From Bacteroidota bacterium (GTDB lineage Bacteria > Bacteroidota > Bacteroidia > NS11-12g > UBA9320): a stretch of DNA of 64,000 bases. Under the pieces are notes generated by a model that made no database searches, had not been told where the DNA came from, and saw only the letters and a list, made by a program, of their open reading frames with translations. The stretch's first letter is position 1. Every line of letters begins with the position of its first letter. The stretch covers positions 62,001 through 126,000 of the forward strand of contig JABIUV010000031.1 of NCBI GenBank assembly GCA_018700895.1, read 5' to 3'. Both the position numbers and the translations under genes were made by a program. This document shows positions 19,519 to 52,909 of this stretch, piece after piece.

Positions 19519-19611
19519 AAATAGTTACTCCCCTGTCATAAGATAGATCAAATAGGATCATACGACTAAATATTGCACATACGTGTGAATGAGAAGTTCT
19601 ACCTTTACGCC

Positions 19612-20575
19612 ATGGCTAAATCTAAGGACAATCGTCGTCAATTTTTGAAAAAACGCTTCACTAGCAACCCTCGCACTTGGATTATCTCCACTTCGTTCTA
19701 TAGCTAAATCCAATGTCACGCAAGAGCAACTAGACTGCGACCAAACGACCTTTGACTATTATGGTGAAGGCCCTTTTTACACCGACAATCCGCCTGTAAT
19801 ACAAGACGGTAAGCTTGCTCCCGACACTGAAATAGGCACGCGTATCAGTATCACTGGTCGTGTACAAAACTTAGATTGCTCGGAATTTATACCTAACACG
19901 GTTGTAGATATGTGGCACGCCAACAATGCGGGAGAATATGACAATGACGGCTACCACCTGAGAGGTAAGGTGACTACTAATGCACAGGGTTTTTATTCCA
20001 TAGAAACCATAAAACCAGGCAAATACCTCAATGGTGCCCAATACCGCCCATCACACATTCATTTTAAGATTACTCCCCCTAATTTCCCCACTGTCACAAC
20101 CCAACTTTACTTTGCCGGAGATACCAGCATAGAACAAGATGCGGCTGCAAGTATTACCACTGGCCCGTACGATGCTACTCATCGTATTATTGAACTTACC
20201 GACGATGGCACGGGTGTACTAGAAGGAACGTGGGATATTGCCGTAAGTGGAGAGGGTATCGTTGGCTCAAGTGATATTCATCTAGACAAAGGCATCATTT
20301 ACGCTGCAAATCCTAATCCATTTACTAAGGAGTTGGCAATTAACTTTGGTGTATTTCAGGCATCGGAAGTGAGTCTATTGGTATTTGATATGCAGGGTCG
20401 TGAAGTCGCCACCCTAGAACGCCAGCACCGAACGCCCGAAAAATATAATGCCACGTGGATTCCAGATGCTAAGTTACCCAATGGGTACTATTTCATAGCA
20501 CTCAAAATAAATGCTATACAAGTACATTATCTGAAGGTGAAATTCGAACGACAGGCAAGTCCTTATGGCCAATAA
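19612..20575 (+). pseudogene. Intradiol dioxygenase-like T9SS protein with a frameshift in its signal peptide
   Basis: The gene starts with MAKSKDNRRQFLKK, a twin-arginine motif. The frame then needs a -1 correction within an A6 run (about 19650-19655) to continue NASLATLALGLSPLRSIAKS, the rest of a Tat-like signal. Downstream is a beta-sandwich of the protocatechuate 3,4-dioxygenase type: YYGEGPFYTDNPP, then VVDMWHANNAGEYDN and YRPSHIHFKI. The Tyr, His and His of these motifs are the iron ligands of the family. The last 85 residues (NPNPFTKELAINF to the end) are a type A T9SS sorting domain. So export by Tat and then T9SS is implied. With one base removed it would be an intact protein of about 320 residues. 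The break may be a real mutation or a homopolymer error. The substrate is unknown. Confidence 0.8.
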
Positions 20576-22284: not shown

Positions 22285-22563
22285 TTATTCGCCAGTAACT
22301 ACAGTTACTATTCTTGTTATAAAAAGACCCGCTTCTACTTTTTGATCTACAGTAGAAATTTTAGTGATTTTCCCATTTTCAGCAGCCTTTGCAATACCAG
22401 CGTTTCCGCCGTCCAATGCTAAACCAAAAATCGTTCTATAACTAGATTCCCCAGTTTTAGAACCTGCTGGATTATCTGTTACAAATAATGGACCTGCTGC
22501 ACTGCATGCAGTAAGTGATACCACAATAAAACCTGCTATTAATGTTTTTGCTATATTTTTCAT
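22285..22563 (-). CDS. TRL-like lipoprotein, copy 3
   Basis: The 92-residue precursor has a lipoprotein signal with the lipobox SLTACS, then a short TRL-like domain. It reads PLFVTDNPAGSKTGESSYRT, then IFGLALDGGNAGIAKAAENG, then KITKISTVDQKVEAGLF. The pattern of a Gly-rich strand followed by AAxNGxIxKIxTVD is shared with the two upstream genes. TRL-domain proteins are small, probably envelope-bound and of unknown role. It is the last gene of the three-gene set, 11 bp after copy 2 and before a terminator. Confidence 0.8.
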   Translation of the reverse strand: MKNIAKTLIAGFIVVSLTACSAAGPLFVTDNPAGSKTGESSYRTIFGLALDGGNAGIAKAAENGKITKISTVDQKVEAGLFITRIVTVVTGE

Positions 22564-22574
22564 GATTTTACTTC

Positions 22575-22892
22575 TTAGTTGCTTGCTTCTGTTCCTGTTA
22601 CAATAATTCTCACGATGCTAAACAAACCGTAGTTTGCAGTTTGTACATCTACTGTAGCTATTTTATCTATTTCGCCATTTTTAGCAGCTTGGATTACTCC
22701 AAACTCTTTGTTAGTAGAGAATACACCTGCTTGGAGACTTGTTCCTGACGAAGTACCAAAAATTACGGTTGTTTTAGATGTTCCTACGGCATCTCCTATT
22801 TCGTTGTTAGTAACGGCATAAGGTCTGGTTACGGTACAAGAAGCAAAGAATAATACAGTTGCTCCTAGCAATAATGTTTTTAAATTTTTCAT
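22575..22892 (-). CDS. TRL-like lipoprotein, copy 2
   Basis: The 105-residue precursor has a lipobox (FFASCT) after a hydrophobic signal. The mature domain reads RPYAVTNNEIGDAVGTSKTT, then VIQAAKNGEIDKIATVDVQT. It is the longest of the three copies and carries the best AAKNGxIxKIATVD motif. It lies 2 bp after copy 1 and 11 bp before copy 3, so one transcript is expected. It has the same envelope location and unknown function as its neighbours. Divergence among the three copies is large enough to suggest an old duplication. Confidence 0.82.
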   Translation of the reverse strand: MKNLKTLLLGATVLFFASCTVTRPYAVTNNEIGDAVGTSKTTVIFGTSSGTSLQAGVFSTNKEFGVIQAAKNGEIDKIATVDVQTANYGLFSIVRIIVTGTEASN

Positions 22893-22894
22893 AA

Positions 22895-23155
22895 TTATTC
22901 TCCAGTTACTGTTGTTTTAAAAATTGGAAAAATGAATTGAGTTACTTTGAATTCTGCAATTCCTACTTTACTGATATCGCCGTTTTCTTTGGCTTTTTTG
23001 AAAGAAATGTCAGAATCCTTTTGAAAAGGTTTAGCTGTAGCTACGCCCACCTTGTAGCCTACAGAATTGTTGGTTACGAGAGCTGTATGTGTTAGTACGC
23101 AAGAAGAGAAACTCATTGCTACAATAACAGCTACCGATAGTTGTTTTAGATTCAT
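22895..23155 (-). CDS. TRL-like lipoprotein, copy 1
   Basis: This 86-residue precursor is the promoter-proximal member of the set. The signal peptide ends in the lipobox SFSSCV. The mature part is TALVTNNSVGYKVGVATAKP followed by ISFKKAKENGDISKVGIAEF, the same VTNNxxGxKxG and KxNGxIxKV pattern as the other two. All three end with a strand close to a VTG motif. It is transcribed from a consensus promoter (23186-23215) with about 30 nt between the -7 box and the ATG. No enzyme or transporter gene is included in the unit. Confidence 0.78.
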   Translation of the reverse strand: MNLKQLSVAVIVAMSFSSCVLTHTALVTNNSVGYKVGVATAKPFQKDSDISFKKAKENGDISKVGIAEFKVTQFIFPIFKTTVTGE

Positions 23156-49708: not shown

Positions 49709-51307
49709 ATGGCAACAACTTCAAAAGCAAGAACAGACTCTGGAATCGCACCATACGCCGGCCTTTGGGACCGCTCGGCAATATTACACCTACTTAGAAG
49801 AGTGCACTTTGGTGTCGTAAAGGAGGATATAGATTACTACCTCTCAAAAACGCTAACACAATCGGTAGATGATATTCTAAATATAGACTACACCCCTCCT
49901 GCTCCGCCTATCAATAATTACAATGACCGGAATACCGACCCAAATGTACCAGCTGGCAGTAGTTGGGTGAATGATTATAATGCGGCACTCAATGGCACCA
50001 GAAGACAGTCATACCAAATGTGGTGGTCAGGACAAATAATCAATCACGACCGAAGTATTCGAGAGCAAATGGTCCTCTTTTGGCACAACCATTTTGCAAC
50101 GCAAACAGATGTAGTAGGATGGGCAAATTTTTGCTATCAGAATAATGCTACTTTACGAAAAAGTTGTTTAAAGAACTTCAAAACACTTGTAAAGGATATA
50201 ACACTTGATCCCGCTATGCTCATTTTCCTAAACGGTGAAAGAAATACTGCTTCTGCTCCGGATGAGAATTACTCTAGGGAGCTTCAAGAGTTATTTACCC
50301 TGGGCAAAAGCCTTGACAGTCAATATACAGAAAGTGACGTTATTTCTGGAGCCAAGGTACTCACAGGTTGGAGAATTAATAAGCAAGATGGCACTGTTTA
50401 TTTCCAAGAGAACAGACACGACACCAACGACAAGCAATTCTCAGCATATTATAACAATAAAATAATTGCAGGCAAAACGGGACCGACAGCAGGGGAAGAA
50501 GAACTTGACGAAATGTTGGCAATGATTTTCGCACAAAACGAGGTAGCCAAATTCATAGTACGTAAGCTGTACAGATGGTTTGTATATTACGACATAGATG
50601 AGGCCACAGAGAATAATGTCATTACTCCTTTGGCCAATATTTTTAGAGATAGTGATTACGAAATAAAGCCGGTATTAGAAGCACTATTTAGGAGTGAACA
50701 TTTTTATGATGTAGCAAATAGAGGTGCCCTGATAAAAAGCCCTGCATCCTTTACCCATGGCCTAATTAGAACATATGATATAGTAATGCCTCAAAGTACG
50801 GAGTACGTAACACAGTACAGTGCTTGGGGGTCTATATCTAATTTTTCTAGATTATTACAACAAGAACTAGGTGACCCTCCAAGTGTATCTGGCTGGCCAG
50901 CCTATTATCAACTGCCTCAGTATCATGAGCTTTGGATAAATAGTGACACTCTACCCAACAGAAACCGAATAACAGACATACTCACTACCAACGGGTATAA
51001 TTATAATGGATATAGTCTCAAAATAGATGCAGTATCTTTTGCCGAAAAATTCGACTCGGTAAGTGACCCGAATTTATTTATCAAGGACCTATTGGAATTT
51101 CTTCATACGCTACCGGCAGAAGACGCTCAATTGGCATACATGAAATCTATCCTCCTTTCAGGACAGCTAGAAGACCATTACTGGAGTGATGCTTGGAATG
51201 CATATATAAATGACCGCAATAATGATGCAAAAAGAACAGTTGTGTCTCAGCGGTTATCATTCTTATTAAAATATTTAATGAACTTAGGAGAGTTCCAACT
51301 TTCATAA
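49709..51307 (+). CDS. DUF1800-family protein
   Basis: The 532-residue protein is a DUF1800 member. Matching parts are LHLLRRVHFGVVKEDIDYYL, then REQMVLFWHNHFATQ, PAMLIFLNGERNTASAPDENYSRELQELFTLG, VLTGWRIN, and FVVRKLYRWFVYYDID-like FIVRKLYRWFVYYDID. No signal peptide or sorting domain is seen. In Bacteroidota it is commonly encoded just before DUF1501, and here the gap is 18 bp. The pair is considered a secreted, possibly chaperone- or enzyme-linked unit, with no established function. It is 21 bp after the DUF937 gene. Confidence 0.9.
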   Translation: MATTSKARTDSGIAPYAGLWDRSAILHLLRRVHFGVVKEDIDYYLSKTLTQSVDDILNIDYTPPAPPINNYNDRNTDPNVPAGSSWVNDYNAALNGTRRQSYQMWWSGQIINHDRSIREQMVLFWHNHFATQTDVVGWANFCYQNNATLRKSCLKNFKTLVKDITLDPAMLIFLNGERNTASAPDENYSRELQELFTLGKSLDSQYTESDVISGAKVLTGWRINKQDGTVYFQENRHDTNDKQFSAYYNNKIIAGKTGPTAGEEELDEMLAMIFAQNEVAKFIVRKLYRWFVYYDIDEATENNVITPLANIFRDSDYEIKPVLEALFRSEHFYDVANRGALIKSPASFTHGLIRTYDIVMPQSTEYVTQYSAWGSISNFSRLLQQELGDPPSVSGWPAYYQLPQYHELWINSDTLPNRNRITDILTTNGYNYNGYSLKIDAVSFAEKFDSVSDPNLFIKDLLEFLHTLPAEDAQLAYMKSILLSGQLEDHYWSDAWNAYINDRNNDAKRTVVSQRLSFLLKYLMNLGEFQLS

Positions 51308-51325: not shown

Positions 51326-52909
51326 ATGAAGAGAAGAGATTTTTTAAAACGTGTTGCTCCTATGTCATTATTGCCATTTGCTATGAATGGTCAACCCATC
51401 AGGGCCTACGGCAAGCTAATGGGTGCTGAGCAAGAAGATTTTACAGAAACTGACAATGTTTTGGTTCTAGTACAACTAAATGGAGGTAACGATGGACTAA
51501 ACACACTTATCCCCTTAGATCAATATACTAACCTTACAGCAGCAAGACCCGATGTTATCATTCCAGAAAACAAAGTTTTAGGTCTGGAAGGCATCGATGG
51601 AACAGGCATACATCCTAGTATGCACAAAATGCGCGACATGTACAATAACGGGAAACTCCACATTTTACAATCTGTAGGATATCCTAATCAAAACTATTCT
51701 CACTTTAGAAGTACAGATATATGGATGACAGGATCTGACACTGACGAAATACTTGAAAGCGGATGGATAGGACGATACCTGAGCGAAGAGTGGCCAAACT
51801 ATCCCAATGGATTCCCCAATGAAAACATGGAAGACCCGCTTGCTATACAGATAGGGAGTGTAGTATCTCAGGTATGCCAAGGCTTAGCTGTGAATATGGG
51901 TTTTGCAATTACCAATCCTAACAATTACTATCAACTGCTTACGGGTAATTACCCAGACGCTCCAGACTCCTGGGCAGGAAAGGAACTAGATTATGTTCGT
52001 ACAGTTGCTCGACAAACCAACGAGTACAGTCTAAAAGTAAAAGCTGCAGCAGAGAAAGCTACGAACTTATCTGACTTATACCCAGAGGGAAACAGATTAG
52101 CTGATCAGCTTAAAATTGTAGCTCAACTGATAGCAGGCGGATTAAAAACCCGTGTATACGTAGTATCTTTGGGCGGATTTGACACGCACGCCAATCAGGT
52201 AGATCCTGTGGACAGTAACGAAACAGGCCAACACGCTTTCTTACTCGAATCTGTATCAGAAGCTATCAATGCATTCCAAGATGATATAGAAAAATTAAAG
52301 GTAGATCATCGCGTATTGGGGATGACATTTAGTGAATTTGGCAGAAGAATAATCAGCAACGCAAGCACAGGTACGGACCACGGAAGCTCCGCACCTCTGT
52401 TTATGTTTGGGAACAAAGTGAAAGCAGGAATGACTGGCACCAACCCAACTATACCAGCGAATGCTACTGCAAAAGACAACCTCGAAATGCAGACAGATTT
52501 CAGAGACATCTATAGTACTATTTTGCAAGATTGGTTCTGTTTAGATAAAACCACCTCTGATAGCGTTTTGCTGCAAGATTTTGACAAGATAGATCTAATA
52601 CAAGACTCGTGCAACACCACATCTATTGATCAAACAAGGAAACAAAAAGCTGGGGACGCTTATGTCAGTAATTATCCTAATCCGTTTGGTAGTCAAACCA
52701 CCATCAAATATTACTCGGATGGAGGGGATGTGAACATAGTAATCCTAGATACACAAGGAAAAGAAGTGTACCAATTGGTACAATCTACTATTCCAAAAGG
52801 CACACATGAGGTGCTATTTGACGCATCATTTTTACCCACTGGGACATACTACTGCAGATACCAAAACGGATTTAATCAACAAACGAGAAGCTTGTTAAAA
52901 GTGAGATAG
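51326..52909 (+). CDS. DUF1501-family protein with Tat-like signal and T9SS sorting domain
   Basis: The 527-residue protein starts MKRRDFLKRVAPMSLLPFAM, a twin-arginine motif (KRRDFLK) followed by a hydrophobic segment. DUF1501 (a sulphatase/phosphatase-like fold) follows: VLVQLNGGNDGLNTLIPLDQ, then GIHPSMHKM, and GGFDTHANQV, EFGRRIISNASTGTDHGSSA with the probable metal-binding residues. The last 80 residues (NYPNPFGSQTTIKYYSDGGD onwards, ending TRSLLKVR) are a type A T9SS domain, so the protein is exported to the cell surface. It is coupled to the DUF1800 gene. Confidence 0.93.
   Translation: MKRRDFLKRVAPMSLLPFAMNGQPIRAYGKLMGAEQEDFTETDNVLVLVQLNGGNDGLNTLIPLDQYTNLTAARPDVIIPENKVLGLEGIDGTGIHPSMHKMRDMYNNGKLHILQSVGYPNQNYSHFRSTDIWMTGSDTDEILESGWIGRYLSEEWPNYPNGFPNENMEDPLAIQIGSVVSQVCQGLAVNMGFAITNPNNYYQLLTGNYPDAPDSWAGKELDYVRTVARQTNEYSLKVKAAAEKATNLSDLYPEGNRLADQLKIVAQLIAGGLKTRVYVVSLGGFDTHANQVDPVDSNETGQHAFLLESVSEAINAFQDDIEKLKVDHRVLGMTFSEFGRRIISNASTGTDHGSSAPLFMFGNKVKAGMTGTNPTIPANATAKDNLEMQTDFRDIYSTILQDWFCLDKTTSDSVLLQDFDKIDLIQDSCNTTSIDQTRKQKAGDAYVSNYPNPFGSQTTIKYYSDGGDVNIVILDTQGKEVYQLVQSTIPKGTHEVLFDASFLPTGTYYCRYQNGFNQQTRSLLKVR

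Follow-up and report, generated by a model that had tools for sequence, protein, structure and literature searches.

A frame-broken Bacteroidota gene from a conserved family of putative surface intradiol dioxygenases that join a twin-arginine start to a T9SS tail

What kind of gene encodes an apparent twin-arginine (Tat) signal, an intradiol dioxygenase, and a T9SS tail in sequence, but spreads them over two reading frames? The gene in question lies in a 64-kb window (the whole stretch of DNA that was analysed), and its features are collected in Table 1. The initial annotation had located it at 19612-20575, with an RRQFLK motif, a dioxygenase-like protein, and a T9SS tail, and was correct in both coordinates and content. 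We conclude that the locus is probably a signal-broken copy of a conserved group of Bacteroidota surface intradiol dioxygenases that, to judge from their sequences, pair a Tat start with a T9SS tail and would be exported by way of both systems.

Table 1. Features of the broken dioxygenase gene and of a second protein with the same pair of signals (positions in the window)
Feature	Position	Strand	Basis
Frame 1 (start codon, 31-residue N-terminal piece, twin-arginine region, then stop)	19612..19707	+	Sequence, translation
RRQFLK twin-arginine motif	19633..19650	+	Pattern match; RRxFL of relatives
A6 run, meeting place of both frames	19648..19653	+	Sequence, reading frames
Frame 2 (signal remainder, intradiol dioxygenase, T9SS tail, stop)	19649..20575	+	ORF, Pfam, hexamer score
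Dioxygenase_C domain (PF00775)	19766..20242	+	Pfam
Tyr97 codon, predicted iron ligand	19937..19939	+	Alignment to 2pcd; 77/77
Tyr126 codon, predicted iron ligand	20024..20026	+	Alignment to 2pcd; 77/77
His-Ile-His codons, His136 and His138 predicted iron ligands	20054..20062	+	Alignment to 2pcd; both 77/77
T9SS type A sorting tail (PF18962 / TIGR04183)	20312..20521	+	Pfam, NCBIfam, model strands
DUF1501 protein (MKRRDFLK start, DUF1501 domain, T9SS tail; intact)	51326..52909	+	Tail, pattern, and domain matches

From the ATG at 19612, the window translation of frame 1 runs for 31 codons, including NRRQFLKK, to the stop at 19707; it opens with MAKSKDNRRQFLKK... and reads in full MAKSKDNRRQFLKKRFTSNPRTWIISTSFYS. 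Frame 2 opens at 19649 with KNASLATLALGLSP..., ahead of the dioxygenase domain and the tail, and ends at TAA 20573-20575. Its earliest start codon, ATG 19910, lies within the dioxygenase domain and is preceded by 87 codons without a start. By a hexamer coding score trained on the long open segments of the window, in which 47 open segments score >15, frame 2 reaches 152.6, and 44.6 of this falls in the 87 codons that precede any start; the runner-up start-less segment, which is cut by the window edge, gathers 14.1 before its first start. Frame 2 is the sole strong start-less coding frame of the 64-kb window, and this is more than chance. The frame break is present in the assembled sequence. From the copy as assembled, an exported enzyme cannot be made, because the signal frame ends after 31 residues and translation of the other frame could begin no earlier than within the catalytic domain.

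The sequence TACCTTTA occupies 19600-19611, directly 5' of the ATG, and similar words occur in some relatives from the genus; we presume that it may be a Bacteroidota-type -7 element, in which case the leader would be very short. A conserved operon around the gene was considered and rejected: when flank ORFs of >=90 amino acids were clustered at 80 loci (with flanks often ended by contig ends), the best-shared neighbour cluster was present at just 8 loci, and the dioxygenase gene thus appears to stand alone. No Rfam family was found in the window at gathering scores. Further along, on the minus strand (22285-23155), three short, adjacent, related ORFs with similar lipoprotein-like starts are probably tandem paralogues.

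The domain assignments of frame 2 are above their thresholds. Dioxygenase_C is matched over residues 40-198 (Pfam; E 2.2e-25, 89.6 bits, cut-off 27.3) and Por_Secre_tail over residues 222-291 (Pfam; E 5.4e-07, 30.2 bits, cut-off 27), and NCBIfam scores the latter as a type A tail (25.8 bits, cut-off 23). An intradiol iron site of Tyr, His, and His had been proposed for this protein. The intradiol site stands, but not the number of ligands: the four positions that we take to be the iron ligands of the protocatechuate 3,4-dioxygenase beta chain (2pcd) align with Tyr97, Tyr126, His136, and His138, i.e., two Tyr and two His. Conservation of these residues in homologues had been set beforehand as a test, and they are invariant in all 77 rows of the alignment described below, as are Arg133, Gln152, Cys30, and Cys77. 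The codons of the two cysteines lie at 19736-19738 and 19877-19879 of frame 2, and the pair may form a disulfide after export. Scores against the NCBI equivalogs for catechol 1,2-, chlorocatechol 1,2-, and protocatechuate 3,4-dioxygenase stay below their cut-offs (e.g., 77.6 against 359.25 bits and 68.4 against 296.4 bits). The structure model has a mean pLDDT of 80.8, with residues 1-29 below 50, and among solved folds it lies nearest to that of the SACTE_2871 dioxygenase domain (TM 0.88-0.91 by target across five chains, 0.47 by query). Seven strands are predicted between residues 215 and 299, in the tail; seven strands are also given for the tails of RgpB and PorZ in the excerpted text of PMC5445135.

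In the window gene, the motif and the h-region lie in different frames; Tat-type features were judged in its relatives. A set of 58 genomes (the own genome and 57 relatives) holds 12 matches to the enzyme at E <1e-60, the own one among them; nine other genomes hold copies that match almost the entire query, and when eight intact copies were aligned with frame 2, RRQFL was present in all eight. A search of named genomes gave 111 relatives, of which the top 80 were taken for analysis, ranked by similarity to all of frame 2 including the tail, which favours tail-bearing proteins; some of these share their contigs with the 58-genome set. The taxonomic labels of the relatives include Saprospiraceae, Cryomorphaceae, other Flavobacteriales, and Chitinophagales, some Ignavibacteria, and also Lewinella cohaerens DSM 23179 and Aureispira sp. 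CCB-QB1. RRxFL is present in 78 of the 80, and in the remaining two (L119 and L135) a contig edge cuts the sequence at its start. Every fetched relative whose N terminus is on the contig thus has the motif, and the sequences do not bear out a Sec-only signal in homologues, which had been named beforehand as a refuting condition.

The alignment comprises 77 rows, i.e., the window frame and 76 relatives; L080, L119, and L135, whose starts are off the contig, and L121, which has an in-frame stop, were left out. Counted along the motif, positions 0, 1, 3, 4, and 6 are R, R, F, L, and N in all 76 aligned relatives, and the residues before the motif vary. The Tat consensus is a motif of the type S/T-R-R-x-F-L-K. 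The curated NCBI model TAT_signal_seq is matched at E 0.1 by 51 of the 77 rows; the 26 that do not reach this level include the window row, from which the motif is absent by construction. Dioxygenase_C is found in all 77 rows and Por_Secre_tail in 76 (E 0.01); the remaining row may be L149, which leaves its contig inside the tail. The predicted double signal is real and conserved, and it marks a family rather than a one-off. This bears on the initial annotation, which had called the combination with an iron site unusual in one protein and had proposed a search for both signals in related genomes: the double signal itself holds up, and it recurs in the DUF1501 proteins described below. In a more divergent intradiol protein (L015, in G024), RRDFL goes with a tail that scores 24.0 bits against the cut-off of 27.

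A second sample was chosen independently of the tail. A PF00775 search of 296 genomes of the class gave a match in 62, from which 29 new loci (L188-L216) were taken as the best-scoring, one per genome; at least six of them are genes already present among the 80, and 27 were scanned for the tail. A tail at E 0.01 was found in 15 of the 27, nine over the Pfam cut-off and six below, and all nine proteins over the cut-off carry RR. RR is present in 13 of the 14 tail-bearing proteins with a readable start (12 RRxF and one RRxA), L207 being the one with a tail and no RR; L192, the start of which is off the contig, was kept out of the table. Twelve proteins have no tail, and three of these have RR, seven have R-K, and two have neither. 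The difference in RR between tail-bearing and tail-less proteins (13/14 versus 3/12) gives a Fisher p of 0.0008 with kinship ignored and with two RR calls made indirectly (L208, SRRTAIK, by eye; L210 from the identical start of L111). As RR also occurs in tail-less proteins, RR alone is no mark of T9SS cargo. The two loci outside the tail scan were viewed by eye: L209 reads KRRDF, L216 has a lipoprotein-like start, and an evident tail is absent from both.

Several starts in the wider intradiol group deserve mention in their own right. M-x-R-K-x-F or M-K-R-K opens the tail-less Bacteroidota proteins L195, L197, L200, L201, L202, L204, L211, and L014, and L032, which lay outside the tail scan, likewise has an R-K-type start. 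L205 combines RRKFLK with a lipobox-like cysteine and is possibly a Tat lipoprotein; its C terminus resembles that of the dioxygenase family, yet there is no Pfam tail match.

How, then, did the window copy come to be broken? The frame break itself is ordinary. It had been described as lying at the A6 run inside the signal with all else intact, and this is true of the assembled sequence, in which frame 2 is undecayed. At 106 columns conserved in >=90% of rows, frame 2 departs from the consensus twice (range over the 77 rows, 0-11), and in comparison with three relatives pN is 0.17-0.23 and pS is near-saturated at 0.78-0.81. These values, the strong coding score of a start-less frame, and the position of the break at a homopolymer are consistent with a mistake in assembly or sequencing at a short run of A and an intact gene in the living organism, an explanation that in our judgment stands an even chance of being right. 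However, a recent real mutation would leave the same picture, and an A6 run is short for a typical short-read error, which counts against this explanation. Of the 18 further genomes from the genus, a number of which are incomplete, only 7 match the enzyme, and among these 7 the G001 copy has a break at another place, so loss in this genus is plausible.

It is possible, with a likelihood that we place a little short of even, that the organism itself carries the break, as a recent mutation that inactivated a gene on its way out of the genus. The patchy distribution within the genus, the separate and different frame break of the G001 copy (L012), and the in-frame stop of L121 in another genome all agree with such a loss. 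However, further damage is absent across the 308 codons of frame 2, and some of the absences in the genus may reflect genome incompleteness. The G001 copy, too, looks constrained (pN/pS of ~0.11 versus G018), and thus both breaks could be draft-assembly errors; though broken, this copy is 96-97% identical to three neighbours from the genus.

For an intact member, we propose the following route as the most likely. The enzyme would fold and load Fe(III) in the cytosol, and its twin-arginine signal would direct the folded protein through Tat rather than Sec. In the periplasm, the Ig-like tail would be recognised by the T9SS; the protein would then exit via SprA, lose its tail, and remain surface-bound or be released, and outside the cell it would open rings of the catechol type. 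This order of transport, from the cytosol through Tat to the T9SS, is plausible. Alternatively, the twin arginine could be incidental and the dioxygenase exported by Sec like other T9SS cargo, but we consider this unlikely. In its favour, the reviews, as excerpted, name Sec as the inner-membrane route of T9SS cargo (PMC5445135, PMC9251779, PMC5449463), one of them stating that Tat feeds the T2SS only (PMC5449463), and seven of the 12 tail-less proteins of the class sample have R-K in place of R-R. Against it, R-R is fixed in 76 of 76 relatives next to positions that vary, whereas R/K swaps would be expected in a Sec n-region, and the curated Tat model recognises two signals in three, as counted above (51/77). 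The h-region of the family is weak as well, which speaks against Sec and is as expected for Tat: its mean hydrophobicity is 1.70 (n=76), versus 2.30 for other T9SS proteins of the own genome (n=9), a small control in which one row, L065, has no signal peptide. The control was drawn from 30 own-genome tail loci; in 11 of them the locus includes the ORF start, and nine of these could be scored, none of which has RR. Last, programmed frameshifting or transcript slippage that unites both frames, for which the homopolymer at the junction might speak, is rejected as exceedingly improbable, as the two-frame arrangement is not conserved (the signal is in one unbroken frame in 76 of 76 aligned relatives) and the few broken draft assemblies are each broken at their own site, which fits errors or recurrent loss instead.

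The own genome encodes one TatC (201.4 bits) and one full-length SprA (2455.8 bits) and has 74 T9SS-tail matches. Of 44 genomes of good quality in the set, counting the own one, 43 have TatC, and its presence thus discriminates little. The RRxFLK DNA pattern occurs 22 times genome-wide, against 20 for the reversed control; since this count does not rise above background, the pattern was used only where it coincides with a tail ORF. Two of the 74 tail matches and 22 pattern matches coincide at an ORF start under this strict pattern, which needs a K after FL and may miss other RR starts: one is the dioxygenase and the other is an intact DUF1501 protein in the same window. The DUF1501 protein is unrelated to the dioxygenase but has the same double signal. 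It is matched at E <1e-60 in 51 of the 58 genomes, own included, and RRxF is found near the start in 25 of 29 fetched relatives; three (L176, L183, and L187) have R-K instead of RR, and for L181 the neighbouring gene was the one taken. In 28 of the 29, the match extends to query residue 521 or beyond and hence, as judged by match extent, spans the tail. A scan of viral contigs with this protein gave one candidate stretch and no relative. A DUF1800 gene (49709-51307) adjoins the DUF1501 gene.

On the evidence of these two groups, we lean towards the view that Tat may be a regular and conserved entry to the T9SS, by which Bacteroidota would bring cofactor-loaded enzymes to their surface: these would fold in the cytosol and pass from Tat to SprA, and at least two families that are unrelated to each other, the intradiol dioxygenases and the DUF1501 proteins, would take this path. 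According to the excerpt of PMC9251779, T9SS cargo crosses the outer membrane folded, and the second step therefore does not forbid cargo that folds before the first. Two-step secretion in general may begin with Sec or Tat according to PMC5445135 and PMC7073777, whose excerpts name no T9SS cargo of the latter kind. The literature searched, which excludes most subscription journals, gave no account of a T9SS cargo exported by Tat: such cargo is absent from the excerpts of PMC5445135, PMC9251779, PMC9127263, PMC5449463, PMC5561996, PMC6549377, PMC4804311, and PMC7073777, and the main text of PMC5742166 refers to neither TatC nor Tat.

If our reading is right, a family with both signals hints that the T9SS may also have a second feeding route, one that carries ready-folded proteins. 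It makes testable whether the T9SS accepts cargo that arrives in the periplasm folded and loaded with metal. Enzymes that open catechol rings would also be expected at the surface of many Bacteroidota, which would matter for the extracellular attack on phenolic carbon.

The putative enzyme overlaps only in part with each of the known systems that it resembles. Protocatechuate 3,4-dioxygenase is a cytosolic alpha/beta enzyme without signal or tail. Its beta chain (2pcd) aligns with the window frame at four ligand positions and at a nearby Arg and Gln, whereas the score of the frame, 68.4 bits, is far below the NCBI equivalog cut-off of 296.4. The spider-mite intradiol dioxygenases (PDB 5vg2 and 6bdj) are among the fold matches of the window model and are described in the excerpt of PMC9167512 as secreted and as homologous to enzymes from bacteria and fungi by which catecholic rings are cleaved; they differ in being animal proteins, acquired from fungi according to the same excerpt, and have no T9SS. 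SACTE_2871 of Streptomyces sp. SirexAA-E (PDB 4ilt and 4ilv) shares the fold at 29% identity, likewise joins an intradiol domain to a second domain, and is termed secreted in the title of its paper; there, however, the second domain binds carbohydrate or lignin, whereas that of the window gene is a T9SS sorting tail. With type A cargo of the T9SS (TIGR04183 / PF18962), finally, the family shares a C-terminal tail that scores over curated cut-offs and has the strand number of RgpB and PorZ, but where the reviews, as excerpted, give such cargo Sec signals, the dioxygenase family has a signal of the Tat type.
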